From positions 1 through 7,970 of the forward strand of contig JAEEYJ010000044.1 in assembly GCA_016291725.1 (NCBI GenBank): a stretch of DNA of 7,970 bases. Direction: 5' to 3'. This DNA comes from Solobacterium sp. (GTDB lineage Bacteria > Bacillota_I > Bacilli_A > Erysipelotrichales > Erysipelotrichaceae). The notes under the pieces were generated by a model. It searched no databases. It saw only the letters and a list, made by a program, of their open reading frames with translations, and had not been told where the DNA came from. This document shows, in pieces, positions 1 to 7,970 of this stretch; position 1 is the first letter of the stretch, and every line of letters begins with the position of its first letter. The translations under genes and the position numbers were made by a program.

Positions 1-822
1 AGGAATGCCAGAAAACAGGGCACCACGGTCATCTATACTGTACATGGTCTGCACTTCTACAAAGGCGCCCCGCTCATCAACTGGCTGGCCTACTACCCGG
101 TTGAAAAGCACCTCTCCAAGGATACCGATGTACTGATCACCATCAACAAGGAAGACTATGAGTTCGCCCGGACGCATATGAACGCGAAGGAAACGCTCTA
201 TGTACCGGGTGTAGGCATCGATACCGCGCGCCTGCGGTTCTCCTCGGAAAACCGTCTGAAGCTGCGGGAGGAACTCGGAATGCAGGAAGATTTCATCCTT
301 CTGTCCATTGGAGAACTGATCAAACGGAAGAACCACCGTACGGTACTGGACGCCATTGCTGCACTGAAAAGCGATGAAATCTACCCACATCTGCAGTATC
401 TCATCAGCGGCAGCGGTGTGCTGCAGGATGAACTGAAGGAACACTGCAGAAGCCTTGGAATCGAGGACAAAGTGCACTTCCTGGGCTACCGGCATGACAT
501 ACCGGAACTCTGCAGCGCTTCCGATCTCTTCCTCTTCATGTCCCTGCAGGAAGGGCTTCCTGTCGCTCTGATGGAAGCTATGAGCTGTTCCCTTCCAGCA
601 GTCTGCACTGCAATCCGCGGCAATACAGATCTCGTGGAGGACGGCATCAACGGGCGGCTGATCGCAAACGATCCCAGGAAACTGGCGGAAAGCATCAAGG
701 AGCTGTACCTTTCTCCTCAGACCCGTACAGCCATGGGAGAGCAGTCCCGCCGCAAAGCCCTGGACTACGACCAGGCAAGGATCCTGGACCAGGTGCGGGA
801 GATCTATCTCCGGCACCCATAA
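1..822 (+). CDS. Family 4 glycosyltransferase, capsule/exopolysaccharide type (5' end missing)
   Basis: The frame is open from base 1 and ends at TAA 820-822, giving 273 visible residues; the N-terminus lies outside the window. The visible start (VHGLHFYKGAP, then NWLAYYPVEKHLSKDTDVLI, then TINKEDY) is typical of GT-B retaining glycosyltransferases such as EpsD/CapM-like enzymes. The donor-binding C-terminal half follows: VPGVGIDT, then GELIKRKNH carrying the Arg/Lys that contact the nucleotide-sugar phosphates, and the E-x7-E motif in EGLPVALMEAM (glutamates at visible residues 184 and 192). These enzymes move a sugar from a nucleotide donor to a lipid-linked acceptor at the cytoplasmic membrane face, here probably for a surface polysaccharide. 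Donor and acceptor cannot be read from the sequence. The ATG at 178 is internal, because conserved family sequence precedes it. No other polysaccharide gene is in the window, so this is probably the last gene of a cluster to the left. Confidence 0.9.
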   Translation, partial: RNARKQGTTVIYTVHGLHFYKGAPLINWLAYYPVEKHLSKDTDVLITINKEDYEFARTHMNAKETLYVPGVGIDTARLRFSSENRLKLREELGMQEDFILLSIGELIKRKNHRTVLDAIAALKSDEIYPHLQYLISGSGVLQDELKEHCRSLGIEDKVHFLGYRHDIPELCSASDLFLFMSLQEGLPVALMEAMSCSLPAVCTAIRGNTDLVEDGINGRLIANDPRKLAESIKELYLSPQTRTAMGEQSRRKALDYDQARILDQVREIYLRHP

Positions 823-834
823 TCCCCATGCAGT

Positions 835-861
835 AAAAAATCCACCCTGCGGTGGATTTTA
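835..861. terminator. Bidirectional intrinsic terminator between convergent genes
   Basis: A perfect 10-bp stem (837-846 AAAATCCACC pairs with 851-860 GGTGGATTTT) closes a 4-base CTGC loop. On the plus strand it is followed by TTTTATT. On the minus strand the A6 run at 835-840 supplies a U tract. It sits 13 bases after the glycosyltransferase stop, and the phosphatase stop codon (TAA, complement of 859-861) lies in the stem, so one hairpin can end both convergent units. Confidence 0.88.
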
Positions 862-1455
862 TTCTGTCTTCATTTCAGCCGGAACCGTGAATGTACCGTC
901 TTCGCATTCCGTCGTATAGACCGCACAGTTCCCGATGTATTTCGACCAGTAGCTGCCGCCCGAATCCGGTGTCAGGTATTCCAGGATTCCTTTCATTGCA
1001 ATGGCATGTGTAGAAATCAGGATATTTCCCCCGGTATCCTTGATGGATTCCATGAAGCTGCCGGTCCGCTCCACGACCGCGGACAATTGTTCCATGCCTT
1101 CCGGTGCCGGATGATGGACAAAGTCGTGGAAGAAGAGCATGACCTCCGGCGCGGGATTCTTCAGATCCATCCCTTCATAGGGACCATAGTCCATCTCGAT
1201 CAGCCTGTCGTCCATGGTTACCGGTATGCCCGGGGCAATCTCCTCTGCTGTCTGCACTGCTCTGATCAAAGGGCTTGAATAGACGCGGTCGAATACAATG
1301 CCCTTGTCCCGCAGGAACTTCCCTGCCTGCTGTGCCTGCTGAATGCCTGTGTCATTGAGCGGCTGATCGCTTCTGCCCTGCAGGACACGCGCATTGTTCA
1401 GAGCGGTCTGCCCGTGCCTGACGATAAAGATCCTATTACTGATTGTTCCGGTCAT
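859..1455 (-). CDS. Histidine phosphatase family protein (phosphoglycerate-mutase-like)
   Basis: This is a cytoplasmic 198-residue enzyme of the histidine phosphatase superfamily. Using the ATG at 1455, the catalytic signature RHGQTALN places the phospho-accepting histidine at residue 14, after R13. QGRSDQPLNDTG follows at 27-37, then SPLIRAVQTAE with R65, the acidic residue E87 in IEMDYGPYEG, and the second catalytic histidine H150 in ISTHAIAMKG. All expected active-site residues are present. The frame stays open upstream to an ATG at 1518, but that would add 21 non-conserved residues inside the preceding gene. The chosen start gives normal family length and has GCAGG about 6 bases upstream. 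It overlaps the end of the binding-protein gene by 20 bases, which implies co-transcription. The substrate cannot be predicted: members act on phosphosugars, nucleotide derivatives, alpha-ribazole phosphate or phosphoproteins. Confidence 0.9.
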   Translation of the reverse strand: MTGTISNRIFIVRHGQTALNNARVLQGRSDQPLNDTGIQQAQQAGKFLRDKGIVFDRVYSSPLIRAVQTAEEIAPGIPVTMDDRLIEMDYGPYEGMDLKNPAPEVMLFFHDFVHHPAPEGMEQLSAVVERTGSFMESIKDTGGNILISTHAIAMKGILEYLTPDSGGSYWSKYIGNCAVYTTECEDGTFTVPAEMKTE

Positions 1456-2494
1456 ACTGTGCCTGCAGCCTTTCATAGAACTCCGGATTGCTGTCACCAT
1501 ACTGCTGCTGGCATTCATTCAGTGCTTCTTTGTACAGAGTGGTATTGATGTGATCATCAATCCGGATCTGCTGGGCTTCCTCACTGAACAGTCCCAGGTA
1601 ATCCATATAGGTCCAGGCTCTCTCCACGGAGTTCTTCATCGGATCACAGTTCAGATCAAACCGGGGATTATCCAGATATGCCCTGACATAGGCCTCATCC
1701 ATACCCACCAGTTCCGCTGTGACCGCAACTGTCTCTTCATGGTGCGCAGTGTAGTACTCCAGCGCCCGGATCCAGGCTTTCAGAAGCGCTTTGACAGTAT
1801 TCGGATTCTCATTGATCCAGGATGTCAGCGCCTCTGCTCTGCAGCATGAGTACCCCGGCAGTACATCCGCGGCATAAGTCACGATTTTCAGGTCCGGATT
1901 ATCGATGACAGCGTAGTTCAGCGCAGTACCGACCAATCCGTAGTCCGCGTCGCCGTTCAGAACCGCTTCAATCCGTTCTTCCTGGCTGTTTGTCTCATAC
2001 CACTTGATATTGTTCAGAGGATCATAGCCCATATCCAGCAGCGGACCGGTGATGGCATAAAGATTCGGTTCAAAAGCTGCCGTCTTTCCGATCAGATCCT
2101 CGATCCCGTTCCATTCCGTTTCCGCCCTGGCAAAGACCGGCATGCAGCCTGTAAGCAGATATCCACCGAATATTGTCAGGTCCATACCCTCCGCAATCCG
2201 CTGCAGCGGGAGATTCGTGCCGGAATTCGAGGCAATATCAATTGTTCCGTTCGCAATGCCTTCAAACACTTCTGCATCCGTATTCACCGGTACATATATG
2301 ACCTTGATGCCTTCATCCGCAAAGTATCCCTGCTGTTCCGCAATCGCGGTAAGGATATGCCCGCTGGCATTCAGCGCCAGGCGTACCGTCTCCGTTTCAG
2401 GGGCCGCAGAAGGCACCGGTTCATCACTCTGCCCTGATGCGCAGCCTGCCATCAGCACACAGCAGAGGAATGCCGCAATATACTTCCGTTTCAT
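1436..2494 (-). CDS. Lipoprotein solute-binding protein, NMT1/SsuA/THI5-like, without adjacent ABC partner genes
   Basis: This 352-residue protein begins with a lipoprotein signal: basic MKRK, a hydrophobic stretch, and lipobox LMAGC with the lipidated cysteine at residue 18. A short Ser/Pro/Glu-rich linker follows. The mature domain has the type II periplasmic-binding-protein pattern of the nitrate/sulfonate/pyrimidine family: LALNASGHILTAIAEQQGYF near residue 40, FEGIANGTIDIASNSGTN, a hinge region with NGDADYGLVGTAL near 185, and late WINENPNTVKALLKAWIRAL. It should be anchored on the outer face of the membrane and bind a small ligand, whose identity is not readable; thiamine precursors, sulfonates and nitrate are family options. 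No permease or ATPase gene lies beside it. Its ATG overlaps the TGA of the Cache-MscS gene (ATGA) and follows a strong SD, so it is made together with that channel. It may serve a distant transporter or act as a sensor subunit. Confidence 0.87.
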   Translation of the reverse strand: MKRKYIAAFLCCVLMAGCASGQSDEPVPSAAPETETVRLALNASGHILTAIAEQQGYFADEGIKVIYVPVNTDAEVFEGIANGTIDIASNSGTNLPLQRIAEGMDLTIFGGYLLTGCMPVFARAETEWNGIEDLIGKTAAFEPNLYAITGPLLDMGYDPLNNIKWYETNSQEERIEAVLNGDADYGLVGTALNYAVIDNPDLKIVTYAADVLPGYSCCRAEALTSWINENPNTVKALLKAWIRALEYYTAHHEETVAVTAELVGMDEAYVRAYLDNPRFDLNCDPMKNSVERAWTYMDYLGLFSEEAQQIRIDDHINTTLYKEALNECQQQYGDSNPEFYERLQAQYDRNNQ

Positions 2495-5400
2495 TCTTCC
2501 GCCTCCTTGTCCGTAAAGTCAGCCATCGTTCTTCTCGCAGTGGTATCGAGATGGGATACCGTGACATTCGGGAACGGTACATTGATGCCGTTCCGGTAGA
2601 AGATCTGCAGCAGTTCCTTGTTAAGGTAGCGGATAACACCTTTGATGTCCTTTTCCGTACACCTTGCCAGTACACCGATCCGGATGCCACTGTCATCCAG
2701 GTCCGTAACGCCCATATAGTCCGGACCGCTGAGTATCTTCTGGTTCTTCGCCCGAAGATCCGGCAGATCCCGTTTCAGTACCGCTTCAACATAATCAATA
2801 TCCTGGCCGTATTCAATGCTGATCTTGACTACAGCAAGCGAAGTCTCCTTCGTCATGTTCAGAACACCGGAAATATCACTGTTGTTGAAGATCTTGATGT
2901 TGCCGTCATTGGCCCTGACCTTGGTCGTGCGCAGACCGATGTCCATGACTGTACCGCGGTAGCCGCCGATCGTGACGATATCACCGACCCGGAATTCTCC
3001 CTCAAAGACAATGAAGATACCGGCGAGGATATCCTTGATCAGGCTCTGTGCGCCCAGACCGATGACCAGGGACAGGACACCGGCGCTGGCCAGCAGGCTG
3101 TTCGAATCAACACCGACTAGATGCAGGCAGTAGAAGAAGCCGCCGATCGCTCCACCGTATTTGATGATCGACAGCAGCAGGTGCCCGATCGTTTCCCCCC
3201 GGGTACCCAGCAGTGCCGTAAAGATCCGGACAACAACCCGGAACAGGAAGGTGAATACTACCACAGCCGCCAATACAAGCGCACATGCACTCAGGGCAAA
3301 GATATTGAGCCCTCTGTCCCAGTCGCCGCTGAGGATATACCGCAGCATAGAGCGCTCCTCCAACGGTACAACGACGCCGGCTGCGCTCAGCAATGCATAG
3401 CCCAGCAGCAGAACAAAGATGAATCCGATCAATGCTGCCAGTTTCTGTTCCGGACTGCGTTCATTCCATAGGATCCTCCGGTTATCCCATCTTGCGGCTG
3501 CCTGTGTCGTTACCGAACTGCGTCCGGACGGCAGGATGATGCTGAAGATCGGAGAATCCAGACCATCAACGTCTGCAGCCATCGTTTCATACAGCAACTC
3601 TTCTTCCTTGTTCGTCAATGTCACCGTCAGTGTAAGGATCAGGATGAGCAGGAAGCATGCCCCTGCTGTAATTGCCGCAACCGGTGTACGTGAACGGAAC
3701 ATATTGTTCTTCGGAATCGCAGTCGCAACATAGTACCCATCGGAGTACTTGTAGTACATGAAATAGTTCACACCGTTGACCCGGGTAAACCCGTAGTAGT
3801 CCACACCGTTGAACGCTCTGGACGATATGCCGAGATCCGCTGCCGCTCTGCCGATGCTTGCCTTGATCGGTGAGTACAGGCATTTATGCTCCGGACTGTT
3901 GTCAAACATGACGATGGCTCCGCCATCCAGCATGCTCGTGGACAGAATGGTATCGGTATCCGTGGATTCCAGCAGTGCCTGCGCCAGCTTCGAAGACGGT
4001 TCGATCCGGATCAGTGACCGATGCTTGTTGATGATTTCCCCGGTATTATTGTTCACAGCGTTCTCGTAGGCATACCGGGAAACATACACAGTATTCCCGT
4101 TTTCATCCTTCGCTGTAAAATAGTTTGACGCTGTACCGAAATACTGTGCATAGGCATCCAGATCATTGGTTCCCGCTTCCTGGATCAGACTGTCCTTCCG
4201 TCCGTCCAGCACCTGCAGGAACGCATAGGACGGATCCTCTTCCTCCTGGCTGATGGTAAAATACCAGTTCTCTGTATTCGTAGCGATGGTATGTCCATCT
4301 TCATCAAAGATATACACAGCATCCAGTCCGTTCACATCGCACAGTTCCTGCAGACGGGAAGAATTCGCTACCGATTTCAGCCGGTTGCCCTCGTCATCCA
4401 GCAGATACTCCCGGTTATCCTTCTCGTTATAGACAGTATGATAATAAGCCGACGGTTCATTCAGAACATCCGGCTCATCACCGATGATGAAGGAGATGAT
4501 TCTCGCTGTCGAAAGGAAGTGATCATTGTAGTAATCCTGAATGATCCGCCGGCTTTCCTGGCTTTCTTCATATCTGCCTGTCACTTCCTGCAGTGCTGTT
4601 TCCGATTCCGCAATGCCCTCGGTAATCTCCAGCAGTGTCTGTGTATAGAAAGAGATTCCGTACATCACCAGGGCTGCCGAACACATCAGCGGGAATACCT
4701 TCACGAATACCGACTTGTCGAAATACACAGGATTGCCGGAGTCCTTCCGCAGTACAATCCGGTCTGTCTCCACAGCCCGGCGGACGAAGTCATTGCGTAC
4801 AATAACGGCATAGGCCAGGCACAGCAGCATCACAATGTTGAAGCCCAGCACCGACCAGAATACGACATAATTCTCATGCGTCAGAATGTCCTTCATCCCG
4901 GCTGCAGCATAGATGACGGCACTGTCCCCAAGCTGTCTTGATACACACGAATATTGCTCACCATTGATAGTCACCGTACCGCTGAAGCCGTCTTCCAGGG
5001 CTTCCGGCGGCAGTCCTGCACGGATTGCGCTCTGCCCTGTGAGGAGGTCATCCCCGTTCTTGTAGTACAGGAACAGCTGATCCTTTTTGTCGACAGCGAA
5101 CAGGAAACCGTTATTGATGGTAACCCCGCGGCTCAGTACCGCGGATACATCGCGCAAGGACGCAATCTGTATATCCAGTACAGACGCATCCTGGCCGATT
5201 ACCAGCATGTACTGTGCATCCTTGTAGGTATATGGTTCAGAATAGAAATAGTAGGTGCCGTACTGGCTGCGTACCTGTACCGGAATCACCGTGCCGTCCT
5301 CTCCGGCTGTACCTTTCAGAATGCTGTTGACATTCTCCTGGGTCATATGGGCAGTCGTTGCCGGATTCCTGCCGAACAGTTCTTCCTCCGTGCTGATGAC

Positions 5401-5826
5401 GACCTTTCCGTCCATGGACATCAGGAACAGATAGTCCGTGCCTGCTGTTTCAGCAATGTTCGCAAAAATCAATGATCGCACATTGTCATCATCATCAAAC
5501 ATCGTCTCAAACAGGCCGTTGGAAAACAGCAGTTCGATATCATGCAGGATCTTCAGGTTTCCCTCATGATAGACCTGTGTCAGTTCATCTGCGTTCTCCG
5601 CGTTCCTGTCCAGTATCTGCACCGCTTCCTGCAGCGCATACTCGCTGTTTTCCTTCTGGTTTCTCAAAGCAGCCTGGCGCTGCAGACGGGACAGGAAAAG
5701 GCCGATGAAAAGCGCTCCCAGTATAATCAGGAGCAGGTTGAAAACCACCTTCGAAAAGAAGTAGATATTGGCTTTTTTATGCACGTGCTCTTCTGCTGTG
5801 TTTATATTTTCGTTCTCTTCCGGCAT
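2491..5826 (-). CDS. Double Cache-type sensor fused to an MscS mechanosensitive channel
   Basis: This is a 1111-residue polytopic membrane protein. I see eight likely membrane helices: about 24-47, 320-343, 376-395, 713-738, 794-820, 839-870, 880-906 and the pore helix 909-942. That puts both termini in the cytoplasm. Two large outside regions, 48-318 and 396-712, each have a long helix followed by PAS-like dCache features (YLFLMSMDGKVVIST at 132; AVYIFDEDGHTIATN at 503). The MscS part is complete: pore helix LLASAGVLSLVIGLGAQSLI, then KDILAGIFIVFEGEFRVGDI, the beta domain to about 990, and the alpha/beta cage to about 1090 ending INVPFPNVTV. Ordinary MscS is near 290 residues, so roughly 790 residues are added sensory sequence. 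The likely role is an ion/osmolyte channel whose gating is tuned by an external ligand; this is inference. The start at 5826 is the only ATG before residue 109 and has no strong SD. The gene is coupled to the downstream binding protein. Confidence 0.9.
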   Translation of the reverse strand: MPEENENINTAEEHVHKKANIYFFSKVVFNLLLIILGALFIGLFLSRLQRQAALRNQKENSEYALQEAVQILDRNAENADELTQVYHEGNLKILHDIELLFSNGLFETMFDDDDNVRSLIFANIAETAGTDYLFLMSMDGKVVISTEEELFGRNPATTAHMTQENVNSILKGTAGEDGTVIPVQVRSQYGTYYFYSEPYTYKDAQYMLVIGQDASVLDIQIASLRDVSAVLSRGVTINNGFLFAVDKKDQLFLYYKNGDDLLTGQSAIRAGLPPEALEDGFSGTVTINGEQYSCVSRQLGDSAVIYAAAGMKDILTHENYVVFWSVLGFNIVMLLCLAYAVIVRNDFVRRAVETDRIVLRKDSGNPVYFDKSVFVKVFPLMCSAALVMYGISFYTQTLLEITEGIAESETALQEVTGRYEESQESRRIIQDYYNDHFLSTARIISFIIGDEPDVLNEPSAYYHTVYNEKDNREYLLDDEGNRLKSVANSSRLQELCDVNGLDAVYIFDEDGHTIATNTENWYFTISQEEEDPSYAFLQVLDGRKDSLIQEAGTNDLDAYAQYFGTASNYFTAKDENGNTVYVSRYAYENAVNNNTGEIINKHRSLIRIEPSSKLAQALLESTDTDTILSTSMLDGGAIVMFDNSPEHKCLYSPIKASIGRAAADLGISSRAFNGVDYYGFTRVNGVNYFMYYKYSDGYYVATAIPKNNMFRSRTPVAAITAGACFLLILILTLTVTLTNKEEELLYETMAADVDGLDSPIFSIILPSGRSSVTTQAAARWDNRRILWNERSPEQKLAALIGFIFVLLLGYALLSAAGVVVPLEERSMLRYILSGDWDRGLNIFALSACALVLAAVVVFTFLFRVVVRIFTALLGTRGETIGHLLLSIIKYGGAIGGFFYCLHLVGVDSNSLLASAGVLSLVIGLGAQSLIKDILAGIFIVFEGEFRVGDIVTIGGYRGTVMDIGLRTTKVRANDGNIKIFNNSDISGVLNMTKETSLAVVKISIEYGQDIDYVEAVLKRDLPDLRAKNQKILSGPDYMGVTDLDDSGIRIGVLARCTEKDIKGVIRYLNKELLQIFYRNGINVPFPNVTVSHLDTTARRTMADFTDKEAEE
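2502..2508 (-). promoter_or_regulatory. Strong Shine-Dalgarno for the binding protein, inside the channel gene
   Basis: On the minus strand AAGGAGG lies 7 bases before the ATG at 2494-2492, within the last codons of the channel gene (encoding DKEAEE). With the ATGA stop/start overlap it supports translational coupling and fixes the start of the binding protein. Confidence 0.85.
3613..5757 (-). repeat. Diverged tandem duplication of a helix-Cache-helix module within the channel gene
   Basis: Residues 24-343 (bases 4798-5757) and 376-738 (bases 3613-4701) share the order membrane helix, long charged helix, Cache-like sensor, membrane helix. Residues 61-100 align without gaps to 408-447: both open SExALQE and share E77/E424, Y86/Y433, L91/L438 and I97/I444. 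The later DG turns (139-140 and 510-511) match after an insertion of about 24 residues in the second copy. The similarity is at protein level only. Confidence 0.5.
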
Positions 5827-5840
5827 ACTGATTCTATTTA

Positions 5841-5869
5841 ATCATAAAGGTTCATCCTCTTTAACACAA
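5841..5869 (-). promoter_or_regulatory. Candidate sigma-A-type promoter for the Cache-MscS gene
   Basis: On the minus strand TTGTGT (5864-5869) and TATGAT (5841-5846) are separated by exactly 17 bases. The -10 matches 5 of 6 consensus positions, the -35 only the first three. A start about 7 bases downstream of the -10 would leave a leader of only about ten bases before the ATG at 5826, which fits the lack of a clear SD there. The rest of the 104-base gap (5827-5930) shows no terminator, so transcription from the hydrolase gene may also run through. Confidence 0.4.
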
Positions 5870-5930
5870 ACACCGTTTTGCATACTGTATCCATGGCATG
5901 GCCGGGCTGGATGATCATCTCTGAAAGCAT

Positions 5931-6836
5931 TCAGTACTTTTTCAGCATCCACTCCGGCATAGGGCGCACAGTGCTGCCGCGGAACAACCGGTCACGCCGG
6001 TACTGTATGTTGGCCAGTCCACCGCAGGCAGGACGGTAGTCCGGAAGATGCCGGGCTCCGTAGAACACCTGTTCACCGTCCATACTGACCGCCGGTTCCG
6101 CATCATCCGTCCCGGCCAGGATCCGTTCACACATAGCGATCGCATCATCTACGATGAATCTGTCCACCGTCTCTCTCCCGTGCCCTCCGTACATCACATC
6201 GTACGCGTTTTCATATTTCTTCAGATGCCGCAGTCCGTCAAGATACTCCTCCACACTGGTGGATCCGTAGAGGCCGAGCAGAGTATTGATGTTGCAGGCA
6301 TCTCCGCTGAAGAGAATCCGCTCTTTCCGGTCAAGGAACACCAATGTACCGTAGGTATGACCGGGAACATGGATGGCTTCCAGCTCCCTGTCCCCTGCCT
6401 GGATCACATCACCGTCATACAAAGGACTGGTTACAACCGGTACGGTACGTACGATGTCATCCATTGTTATTTCTGTTCTATGGGTGGCAAGCGGCGTATC
6501 CAGCGTCGCAAACCAAAGCCGCTGGGATTCATCGCTGTGGAACGGGTGATACATCAGCGGAATATCATCCGGATGAATGCCGCAGTTTCTGTATTCAAAT
6601 GCAGCACCGGTATGATCCAGATGTCCATGAGTGAGGACAACAGCCACAGGCAGTTCTGTAAGCTCCTGCACAAATGCTTTCAATGATCCAACACCGGTCA
6701 GTCCGTCCACCAGGACAGCTCGTTCGCTTCCTTCGACCAGATAGCACAGTTCGTCACCCTGTCCGAGTATCTGCCATGTATTGTTCCTTACTTCAACCGC
6801 TTCAAAGAAACGGTTCTTTCTGATCTTTCTGAGCAT
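5931..6836 (-). CDS. MBL-fold metallo-hydrolase
   Basis: This is a 301-residue soluble, cytoplasmic protein with the complete metallo-beta-lactamase-fold metal site. HxHxDH lies in LTHGHLDHTGA (H70, H72, D74, H75), the next metal histidine H160 in HVPGHTYGTLVFLD, the bridging aspartate D179 in LFSGDACN, and the last histidine H219 in YGGHGRE. A substrate-covering strand region precedes them (CYLVEGSERAVLVDG). The fold usually binds two zinc or iron ions and hydrolyses esters, thioesters, lactones or phosphodiesters; the substrate here cannot be named. There is no signal peptide, which argues against a secreted beta-lactamase. The C-terminal 50 residues (FYGARHLPDYRPACGG onward) are not a motif I recognise. 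The start at 6836 is well supported by GGAGGTG. It is the first gene after a terminator and probably opens the unit that continues into the channel gene. Confidence 0.9.
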   Translation of the reverse strand: MLRKIRKNRFFEAVEVRNNTWQILGQGDELCYLVEGSERAVLVDGLTGVGSLKAFVQELTELPVAVVLTHGHLDHTGAAFEYRNCGIHPDDIPLMYHPFHSDESQRLWFATLDTPLATHRTEITMDDIVRTVPVVTSPLYDGDVIQAGDRELEAIHVPGHTYGTLVFLDRKERILFSGDACNINTLLGLYGSTSVEEYLDGLRHLKKYENAYDVMYGGHGRETVDRFIVDDAIAMCERILAGTDDAEPAVSMDGEQVFYGARHLPDYRPACGGLANIQYRRDRLFRGSTVRPMPEWMLKKY

Positions 6837-6842
6837 AAAGCA

Positions 6843-6847
6843 CCTCC
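6843..6847 (-). promoter_or_regulatory. Shine-Dalgarno of the MBL hydrolase gene
   Basis: GGAGG on the minus strand lies 6 bases before the ATG at 6836-6834, in the context ACGGAGGTGCTTT. This near-optimal site fixes the start codon of the hydrolase. Confidence 0.85.
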
Positions 6848-6861
6848 GTTGTTCTGTATTT

Positions 6862-6867
6862 ATTATG
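6862..6867 (-). promoter_or_regulatory. Possible -10 element upstream of the MBL hydrolase
   Basis: CATAAT on the minus strand (5 of 6 to TATAAT) lies just after the upstream gene's terminator and about 25 bases before the hydrolase ATG. The hexamer 17 bases further upstream, CGTACT, is a poor -35 and falls inside the terminator stem, so the call rests on position and the -10 only. Confidence 0.3.
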
Positions 6868-6872
6868 CCATG

Positions 6873-6900
6873 AAAAAAAGATGCAGTACGGACTGCATCT
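6873..6900 (-). terminator. Intrinsic terminator after the anti-sigma-like gene
   Basis: On the minus strand AGATGCAGT (6892-6900) and ACTGCATCT (6879-6887) form a perfect 9-bp stem around a 4-base CCGT loop, followed by a T7 run (complement of 6873-6879). The first base of the stem is the last base of the upstream stop codon (TGA, 6902-6900). It separates the anti-sigma-like gene from the hydrolase unit. Confidence 0.9.
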
Positions 6901-7970
6901 CAGTTGTCGAAGCGGCTTGTCTTCGCATCGTTGATGTGGACATCCCTGAACATGCGGCTATCCATCATCTCCAGAGCTTCTTCCTTGGTACAGATGACCC
7001 TCAGCCCCTGTACAAATATACCGTTGGTCCGAAGATCATCCAACGCTGCCTGTGCTTTCGCCGTTTCCCGCTCATCCAGTACATCGCTGTCCAGCAAAAG
7101 CTTCAGAAGGGTTTCATAGTGCACTTCCAGTCTTTCTGCTGTTACAGGCATATCCTCCCGTGCATTTCCCTGTTCTATCATCTGTCGTTCCAGCTTCAAT
7201 GTCGCAATGTAGATGTTTGAGAAGAAATCGACCGGCAGGCATTCCACTGGAAGGCTCAGTTCAGGATACTCTTCGCTTCTGTAATGCAGCACTGTGCTGT
7301 CATTGTAGTCTGTTGTCCCGCTCATCATAGAGAATCCCAGCACTTCCCTGGAACGGCTTCCTGGTTGTTCATCAATATATGTTACACAATAAATGATCCT
7401 GCTGCCCTCGTACACTGTTTGCATTTTCAGGACTTCATCAATCGTCAAAGGATCACGCAGGCGTACATCCAGCTCCACCAGTGCAGATGCAGGCATTTCT
7501 TCCAGTTCAGTCCGCACATCCCCGGGAAGGTAGTAGAGTGCATAGTCCAGACCGCTCTCCCACCAGCGCCAGAATGTATCATTCAGTACTGTCTCGCGGA
7601 ATACACTGTCTGTACGGATGATCTTTCCATTCTGGATTTTCATTCCTTCTGCACTAGATCTGCCAAGCGGTACACTCCACAGATTCTCTGGGTTTGTCCG
7701 GAATATATGCGTCAGTTCTGCATCGAATGTATAGGTCCCGTAATCTGTACGCTCTATGCTGTCCGACCGATAGGAAATGACATAGCCGGGCATGAACAGT
7801 TCACAGTATGCGTTCATATAATACTTCGCATTCAGGAACTCCGACTGTTCATTCTCCTGCAGCACTTCAGGATCCACCACATTCTCCAGATCACTCAGAT
7901 GGAAGGACTTCAGATCCCGGTATTTTCTGTATCCTGCAGTACAGCGGGCAACAGCCAGTGCTGTAGCACC
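6900..7970 (-). CDS. Extracytoplasmic protein resembling ECF anti-sigma factor C-terminal regions (5' end missing)
   Basis: The frame is open to the window edge and stops at TGA 6902-6900, giving 356 visible residues; the true start is outside. The visible N-terminus GATALAVARCTAG looks like the end of a membrane helix, followed by YRKYRDLK and a soluble domain. Two stretches resemble the C-terminal domain of YhdL-type anti-sigma factors (sigma factor regulator C-terminal family): SALVELDVRLRDPLTIDEVL at about visible residues 162-181, and near the end GIFVQGLRVICTKEEALEMM with MFRDVHIND. An earlier Y-x-EL-x-x-PG pattern (YCELFMPGYVISY) also fits that group. If right, the gene upstream, outside the window, should encode an ECF sigma factor. 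Against this, basic residues just after the putative helix are unexpected for an outside domain. A GTG at 7880 is internal sequence, not a start. I am sure it is a real gene, only moderately sure of the family. Confidence 0.6.
   Translation of the reverse strand, partial: GATALAVARCTAGYRKYRDLKSFHLSDLENVVDPEVLQENEQSEFLNAKYYMNAYCELFMPGYVISYRSDSIERTDYGTYTFDAELTHIFRTNPENLWSVPLGRSSAEGMKIQNGKIIRTDSVFRETVLNDTFWRWWESGLDYALYYLPGDVRTELEEMPASALVELDVRLRDPLTIDEVLKMQTVYEGSRIIYCVTYIDEQPGSRSREVLGFSMMSGTTDYNDSTVLHYRSEEYPELSLPVECLPVDFFSNIYIATLKLERQMIEQGNAREDMPVTAERLEVHYETLLKLLLDSDVLDERETAKAQAALDDLRTNGIFVQGLRVICTKEEALEMMDSRMFRDVHINDAKTSRFDN

Follow-up and report, generated by a model that had tools for sequence, protein, structure and literature searches.

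A predicted double-Cache channel of the MscS superfamily and its paired solute-binding lipoprotein as a candidate sensory unit

Members of the MscS superfamily are known to gain extra transmembrane (TM), ligand-binding, or extracellular parts, as sections of PMC4560390 describe. Among sensors of other kinds, solute-binding proteins (SBPs) stimulate chemoreceptors, sensor kinases, cyclases/phosphodiesterases, and Ser/Thr kinases, according to excerpts of PMC9602780. LuxP acts in this manner on LuxQ (as stated in passages of PMC7584622), and the periplasmic part of LuxQ is placed in the Cache clan in sections of PMC4822843. Signaling by Cache domains is thought to run through the C-terminal TM helix, as passages of PMC8846402 put it.

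The locus described here lies in a 7,970-nt stretch from Solobacterium sp. (positions 1 to 7,970 of the forward strand of contig JAEEYJ010000044.1, assembly GCA_016291725.1), the whole of which we call the window. An intact open reading frame on the minus strand, running from 5826 to 2491, encodes a channel protein of 1111 aa (2491..5826) whose parts follow in the order TM-dCache-TM-TM-dCache-TM-linker-TM-MscS, as judged from the reading frame listing, Pfam, NCBIfam, PDB, and family comparisons. Its hydropathy profile has eight hydrophobic segments. TM1 and TM2 enclose residues 46-320, TM3 and TM4 enclose residues 392-714, and the last four segments carry the pore region. This layout, under which both termini would be cytoplasmic and the pore would face the way it normally does in MscS, agrees with the eight-helix topology given in a preliminary description of this DNA. 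The positions corresponding to TM1-TM7 are hydrophobic in all aligned channel rows in which they can be checked.

The same description had placed an MscS pore at the C-terminus as the only output of the protein, and the comparisons bear out both statements. The MscS TM2/TM3 pore helices and beta domain (residues 883-991; 2854..3180, minus strand) include matches above the Pfam cut-offs for MS_channel_1st (PF21088; residues 887-927, 24.6 bits against 23.1) and MS_channel_2nd (PF00924; residues 929-991, 56.8 bits against 20.2). Each of the 42 matches to solved structures (E≤1) can be recognized as an MscS-type channel from its name or from the stretch matched, the best being 3t9n (1e-37). In the C-terminal cage region that follows (residues 992-1111; 2494..2853, minus strand), alignment to MscS chains reaches about residue 1090 of 1111, and the channel has no cyclic-nucleotide-binding Pfam domain at E≤1. 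The predicted structure and the family comparison agree that the MscS pore is the sole recognizable output. The protein nevertheless scores far under the NCBIfam equivalog cut-offs for MscK (47.7 versus 991 bits), MscM (35.8 versus 809), and YbiO (85.2 versus 596). Across the whole aligned channel set, 57 of the 116 positions in the pore and beta domain (876-991) are conserved in at least 95% of rows. The equivalent count is 7 of 62 in a cytoplasmic linker (residues 739-800; 3427..3612, minus strand), whose conserved residues include P766, G768, R779, W780, W787, E793, and K795 and which is likely to couple the sensor to the pore.

A protein search returned 221 relatives of the channel at E≤0.001, with the 120 listed spanning 1093-1321 aa, and a second search with profile A1 (subsets A1 and A2 each comprise the query and 64 of these 120) yielded about a dozen further members among the matches listed. 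In GTDB genome contigs, a scan confirmed 305 stretches that encode relatives. The 80 that were fetched include loci from Erysipelotrichaceae, Mogibacterium, Lachnospiraceae, Oscillospiraceae, Sarcina sp. DSM 11001, Spirochaetota, and one Bacteroidales MAG. Prevalence is low, at 13 of 145 genomes from the family of the window and 2 of 392 from its phylum. The genome that carries the window also encodes a second copy of the channel, 59% identical and cut by a contig end, and a third MscS beta-domain match, located in a short frame close to where a contig stops. A subfamily of ~920-950 aa (L084-L088; ~24-29% identical) has a similar hydrophobic layout that could accommodate an MscS pore and two ectodomains of smaller size; no SBP of the window kind occurs within the fetched stretches of this subfamily.

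Two external dCache-like modules had also been proposed for the channel, and structure prediction gives a dCache-type fold for both ectodomain 1 (residues 46-320; 4867..5691, minus strand) and ectodomain 2 (residues 392-714; 3685..4653, minus strand), with which the family comparison agrees. Each predicted dCache fold takes up the whole extracellular region between its TM pair, and sections of PMC4822843 describe dCache domains as spanning the entire extracellular region between two TM helices. By sequence, both ectodomains fall under the Pfam cut-off. The window channel has no match to dCache_1 at the curated cut-off of 45 bits, and the top score among eight relatives scanned whole, six of which were picked because a database lists a Cache domain for them, is 30.1 bits. 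Such a domain is listed for 7 of the 120 relatives, and dCache_1 matches at E≤0.01 in 19 of 62 ectodomain-1 members (subset A3, drawn from 77 fragments; subset A4 holds 62 of 81 ectodomain-2 fragments). Sequence-only Cache tests on the window channel and PDB profile searches gave no Cache assignment, whereas the predicted structure did, and the Cache identity of ectodomain 2 rests almost solely on this prediction.

Nearly all aligned channels hold both regions. All 81 rows retain 200 or more residues of the ectodomain-2 stretch, and 77 retain ectodomain 1, the other four being too short at that point. At the threshold of at least 95% conservation, 3 of 126 positions qualify in the distal lobe of ectodomain 1 and 20 of 171 in that of ectodomain 2, counted over rows with and without an SBP. 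The weak conservation of ectodomain 1 would suit a purely structural role, in which the ectodomains set the tension threshold or assembly of a plain mechanosensitive valve with no ligand, and MscS subfamilies are indeed distinguished by the TM domains, extracellular loops, and further elements that they have added (sections of PMC4560390). We consider this quite unlikely, because dCache is a ligand-sensor fold and the presence of two copies with linked SBPs suggests chemistry.

The channel might instead be tuned by a small molecule that the Cache domains bind themselves, leaving the co-transcribed SBP described below with a separate task. Signals typically bind the ligand-binding domains of receptors directly, according to excerpts of PMC9602780. 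The conserved distal lobe of ectodomain 2 and the retention of both ectodomains, by alignment, in rows without an SBP fit such an arrangement. Even so, we judge it somewhat unlikely, since it leaves unexplained both the exclusive, gapless pairing with an SBP gene and the occurrence of a second SBP family in another clade, and the channels have no known amino-acid motif core. The arginine of the R-x-W-Y core belongs to the binding motif of dCache_1AA domains. W128/Y129 of PctA are likewise part of the amino-acid binding motif core (PMC11245519). This core is found in 0 of 81 channels, and an amino-acid sensor of the dCache_1AA type was rejected as a candidate.

The strongest clue to the chemical input is a dedicated, overlapping gene that the preliminary description did not include. 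It encodes an SBP lipoprotein of 352 aa (1436..2494, minus strand) of the NMT1/SsuA/CmpA type with a lipobox-like LMAGC ending at Cys18. Its start codon shares a 4-nt ATGA with the stop codon of the channel gene (2491..2494, minus strand), and a likely ribosome-binding site, AAGGAGG, lies within the end of the channel gene (2502..2508, minus strand). The protein scores above the PF09084 cut-off (Pfam NMT1) and is predicted to have an SBP fold and a lipid anchor. Its nearest folds bind bicarbonate, nitrate, or sulfonates, and therefore a small anion is the first class of ligand to consider. Given the overlapping SBP gene, the likely input is docking of this protein on the Cache domains, beside or in place of direct small-molecule binding. 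Of the other genes in the window, a CobC-like histidine phosphatase is encoded downstream (859-1518, minus strand) and a metallo-beta-lactamase-fold hydrolase upstream of the channel (5931-6836, minus strand); in L004, L026, and L028, too, a relative of the hydrolase is encoded ahead of the channel.

The arrangement extends well beyond the window. An SBP gene lies directly downstream of the channel gene, on the same strand, in 34 of the 80 fetched loci, one of which (L032) was placed by coordinates and another (L062) is absent from the tree. Relative to the channel stop, the chosen SBP start falls between -8 and +48 nt in 35 of 35 cases, comprising these loci and the window, and at -4 in 15 of them; starts were picked among those with a lipobox-like pattern, which all 35 had (subset A5 takes in 22 of these SBPs). 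In L009, L010, and L043, where longer antisense frames occur, the SBP gene was located by tblastn. In L035 (1950-5264), the channel gene is broken into frames of 879 and 185 aa, with an SBP gene behind them.

On a tree that leaves out L062 (544 aa), L001, and L003, a single branch shows the SBP gene right after the channel gene in all 34 rows that can be tested, the window among them, with L042 cut by a contig end. The SBP label changes once on this tree, compared with a mean of 26.1 when labels are shuffled. Because the SBP gene directly follows the channel gene in every member of the branch that can be checked, the two proteins likely work together, although genes that share an operon need not bind one another. 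No SBP of this kind is found in 46 of the 80 loci, many of which have the same two ectodomains and some of which have cut flanks, and thus the channel in general does not need an SBP. The SBP-less paralog found in Solobacterium-type genomes (L002/L089, L023, L025) is followed by a gene for a zinc-ribbon-like membrane protein that has no Pfam match above cut-off and measures 535 aa in its complete form, less where it is cut.

Whole genomes give a similar picture. Among 145 genomes from the family of the window, the SBP (E≤1e-10) occurs in eight, once in each and always adjoining a channel gene. Full-length channels (>1200 bits) are present in 13 of these genomes, five of which lack the SBP, and the SBP is found in 0 of the other 132 (Fisher p 3e-10 with kinship ignored). 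In a draw of 392 genomes from the phylum, the channel search matched only the genome of the window and G343, one of these two matches being divergent and partial, and the SBP search matched the genome of the window and, at 27%, G216. With so few matches, this draw adds nothing to the co-occurrence statistics.

SBPs of the NMT1 type normally serve ABC importers. The SBP could accordingly be an ordinary import protein for a distant ABC permease, with the operon co-expressing uptake and an osmotic release valve, and the 25 PF00528 matches in the genome of the window offer possible partners. One genome without the SBP (L091 in G092, apparently on one contig with L040) has, in a row, the channel gene, a lipoprotein gene with no Pfam match, a BPD_transp_1 permease gene, and an ABC ATPase-like gene called from sequence. 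There the channel gene looks to be just ahead of an ABC import operon. However, 132 of the 145 family genomes have no full-length channel and also no SBP, and the 392 phylum genomes add the one 27% match. Moreover, no ABC family was found by Pfam among the genes after the SBP in the 11 of the 34 loci that were scanned. These genes encode a hydroxyacid dehydrogenase, a glutamate-type dehydrogenase, nitroreductases, a lyase, PrsW, TPR, and DUF proteins, and two have no family. In the eight SBP genomes, the nearest PF00528 permeases on an SBP contig, among the matches listed, are 6.3 kb (G023) and 8.0 kb (G140) away. We therefore regard the import role as unlikely.

A different SBP family accompanies the channel elsewhere. 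In a divergent clade (L071, L076, L078, L079, L083; 33-36% identity), a lipoprotein gene is found directly upstream of the channel gene in five of five loci, and its frame runs 13 nt into the longest channel frame or, if an alternative start is used, ends 2 nt short of it. Pfam assigns this lipoprotein to SBP_bac_3 in the two loci scanned (1.4e-28 and 1.8e-29), and the proteins of the other four loci match that of L078 at 50-78%. The nearest solved relatives of the L078 protein are 2v25, AncQR, and the glutamate-binding protein 5eyf. The upstream protein shows no similarity to its window counterpart in BLASTP (E 1.6), yet in L083 it gives a match to NMT1 as well (6.2e-7). Although they are different Pfam families, the two kinds of SBP share one superfamily. 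It follows that their recruitment need not have been independent, and since the pairings are grouped by clade, each may be a single inherited event.

Other neighbors recur on a smaller scale. A gene of the DegV family, whose members bind fatty acids, is directly downstream of the channel gene in four of four loci of a Spirochaetota/Bacilli clade (L064, L069, L070, L080; Pfam on one). In two related genomes (L051, L052), a protein of 1147-1168 aa with a signal-like N-terminus by eye is encoded 176 and 308 nt upstream of the channel gene.

Where the SBP might dock was approached by comparing 35 channels of the SBP clade with 28 near relatives, leaving out 18 distant rows. Thirteen positions are specific to the SBP-clade channels, none of them in the pore or beta domain, and five (P155, A156, Q163, N167, V185) fall within residues 155-185 of the distal lobe of ectodomain 1 (5272..5364, minus strand). 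The probability of finding at least five in some 31-residue stretch is 0.0026 under uniform placement, with this stretch picked after the data were seen. In a sister clade, the densest stretch of clade-specific positions holds two, and positions kept in channels without the SBP and rare in the SBP clade group elsewhere (4 of 13 at residues 722-752, near TM4). Residues 155-185 are a candidate docking patch, and the SBP would be likelier to dock on the variable ectodomain 1 than on ectodomain 2. The conserved ectodomain 2 may bind a ligand shared by these channels or relay the signal. By inference, ectodomain 1 would be the variable input and docking module, ectodomain 2 a conserved ligand or relay module, and the linker the coupler.

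We propose that the channel and the overlapping SBP form one sensory unit in which SBP docking on the dCache ectodomains tunes the MscS pore, a reading whose docking, coupling, and gating steps are inferred and whose chances we place at about even. In this scheme, the lipoprotein would capture a small solute on the outer side of the membrane and, either loaded or empty, would dock on the ectodomains and shift the Cache lobes. From there the shift would travel through helices TM1-TM4 and the conserved linker in the cytoplasm, altering the tension or probability of pore opening and so easing or opposing it. The chemically tuned osmotic valve put forward in the preliminary description remains plausible. 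More tentatively, at somewhat short of even chances, the system may be a ligand-gated channel of new design, with a detachable SBP lipoprotein as agonist carrier, two double-Cache readers, and an MscS output. Its pairing with two SBP families in different clades would then let a single chassis serve more than one chemical. The SBP might also hand its solute to the pore, the pair then being a channel-type route of uptake or release, as its predicted membrane anchor and its confinement, among the 145 family genomes, to sites adjoining the channel would allow. This is very improbable, as two Cache domains are needless for solute delivery and we know of no precedent for an SBP handing solute to a channel pore.

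The preliminary description had also asked whether this architecture was already characterized. Among the matches listed in a search of mainly open-access literature, there was no description of a Cache plus MscS architecture and no paper on an SBP acting on an MscS channel. Sections of PMC8846402 mention both Cache and MscS without joining them. The ion-channel ('IC') column of a Cache survey is defined by VWA_N and VGCC_alpha2 only, according to sections of PMC4822843, and the models in those sections were built from proteins that already have a signaling output domain, so Cache-MscS proteins could be missed by design.

If the proposed sensory unit is real, external chemistry would control a large bacterial osmolyte pore directly, without a kinase or second messenger. 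Ion channels would become an output class of SBP signaling beyond the four given in excerpts of PMC9602780, and MscS relatives with large added domains would gain a concrete gating input. Bacillota of the rumen and gut would likewise gain a putative means of sensing some small solute, possibly anionic. Matched reagents also come with the pairing, namely the SBP, the ectodomains, and the channel.

The window channel is a member of the MscS superfamily, in which added ligand-binding or extracellular parts are already a known theme. With E. coli MscS, T. tengcongensis MscS, bCNG, and MscK it has in common the pore helices, beta domain, and cage region, and it differs in its two TM-bounded predicted dCache ectodomains and paired SBP. 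bCNG channels carry a C-terminal cyclic-nucleotide-binding domain, whereas the window channel has no match to one, and its scores set it apart from MscK and MscM. CmpA, NrtA, SsuA, and ThiY share the fold and Pfam NMT1 membership of the window SBP and serve ABC importers, whereas the latter is found only beside the channel gene in genomes where it can be placed.

An SBP-type ligand binder controls an ion pore in GluR0 and the ionotropic glutamate receptors. In GluR0 a K+ channel carries the SBP fold as a fused part, whereas here the SBP is made as a lipoprotein of its own and the pore belongs to the MscS type. The alpha2delta subunits of calcium channels are auxiliary and have no pore of their own. 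They share a Cache domain linked to an ion channel, as noted in sections of PMC4822843, but in animals rather than bacteria.

LuxP-LuxQ and other SBP-stimulated receptors (XylFII-LytS, AioX) share with the window system a separate SBP beside a membrane sensor that has a Cache-clan or other extracellular domain. The partner of AioX is a kinase, and the output of LuxP-LuxQ-type receptors is a kinase as well, whereas that of the window system is an ion channel. Channels are not among the four kinds of SBP-stimulated receptor named in excerpts of PMC9602780. In its predicted anatomy, the window system resembles an input of the LuxP-LuxQ type in which the kinase has been replaced by a pore for ions and osmolytes, a matter of likeness and not of membership.
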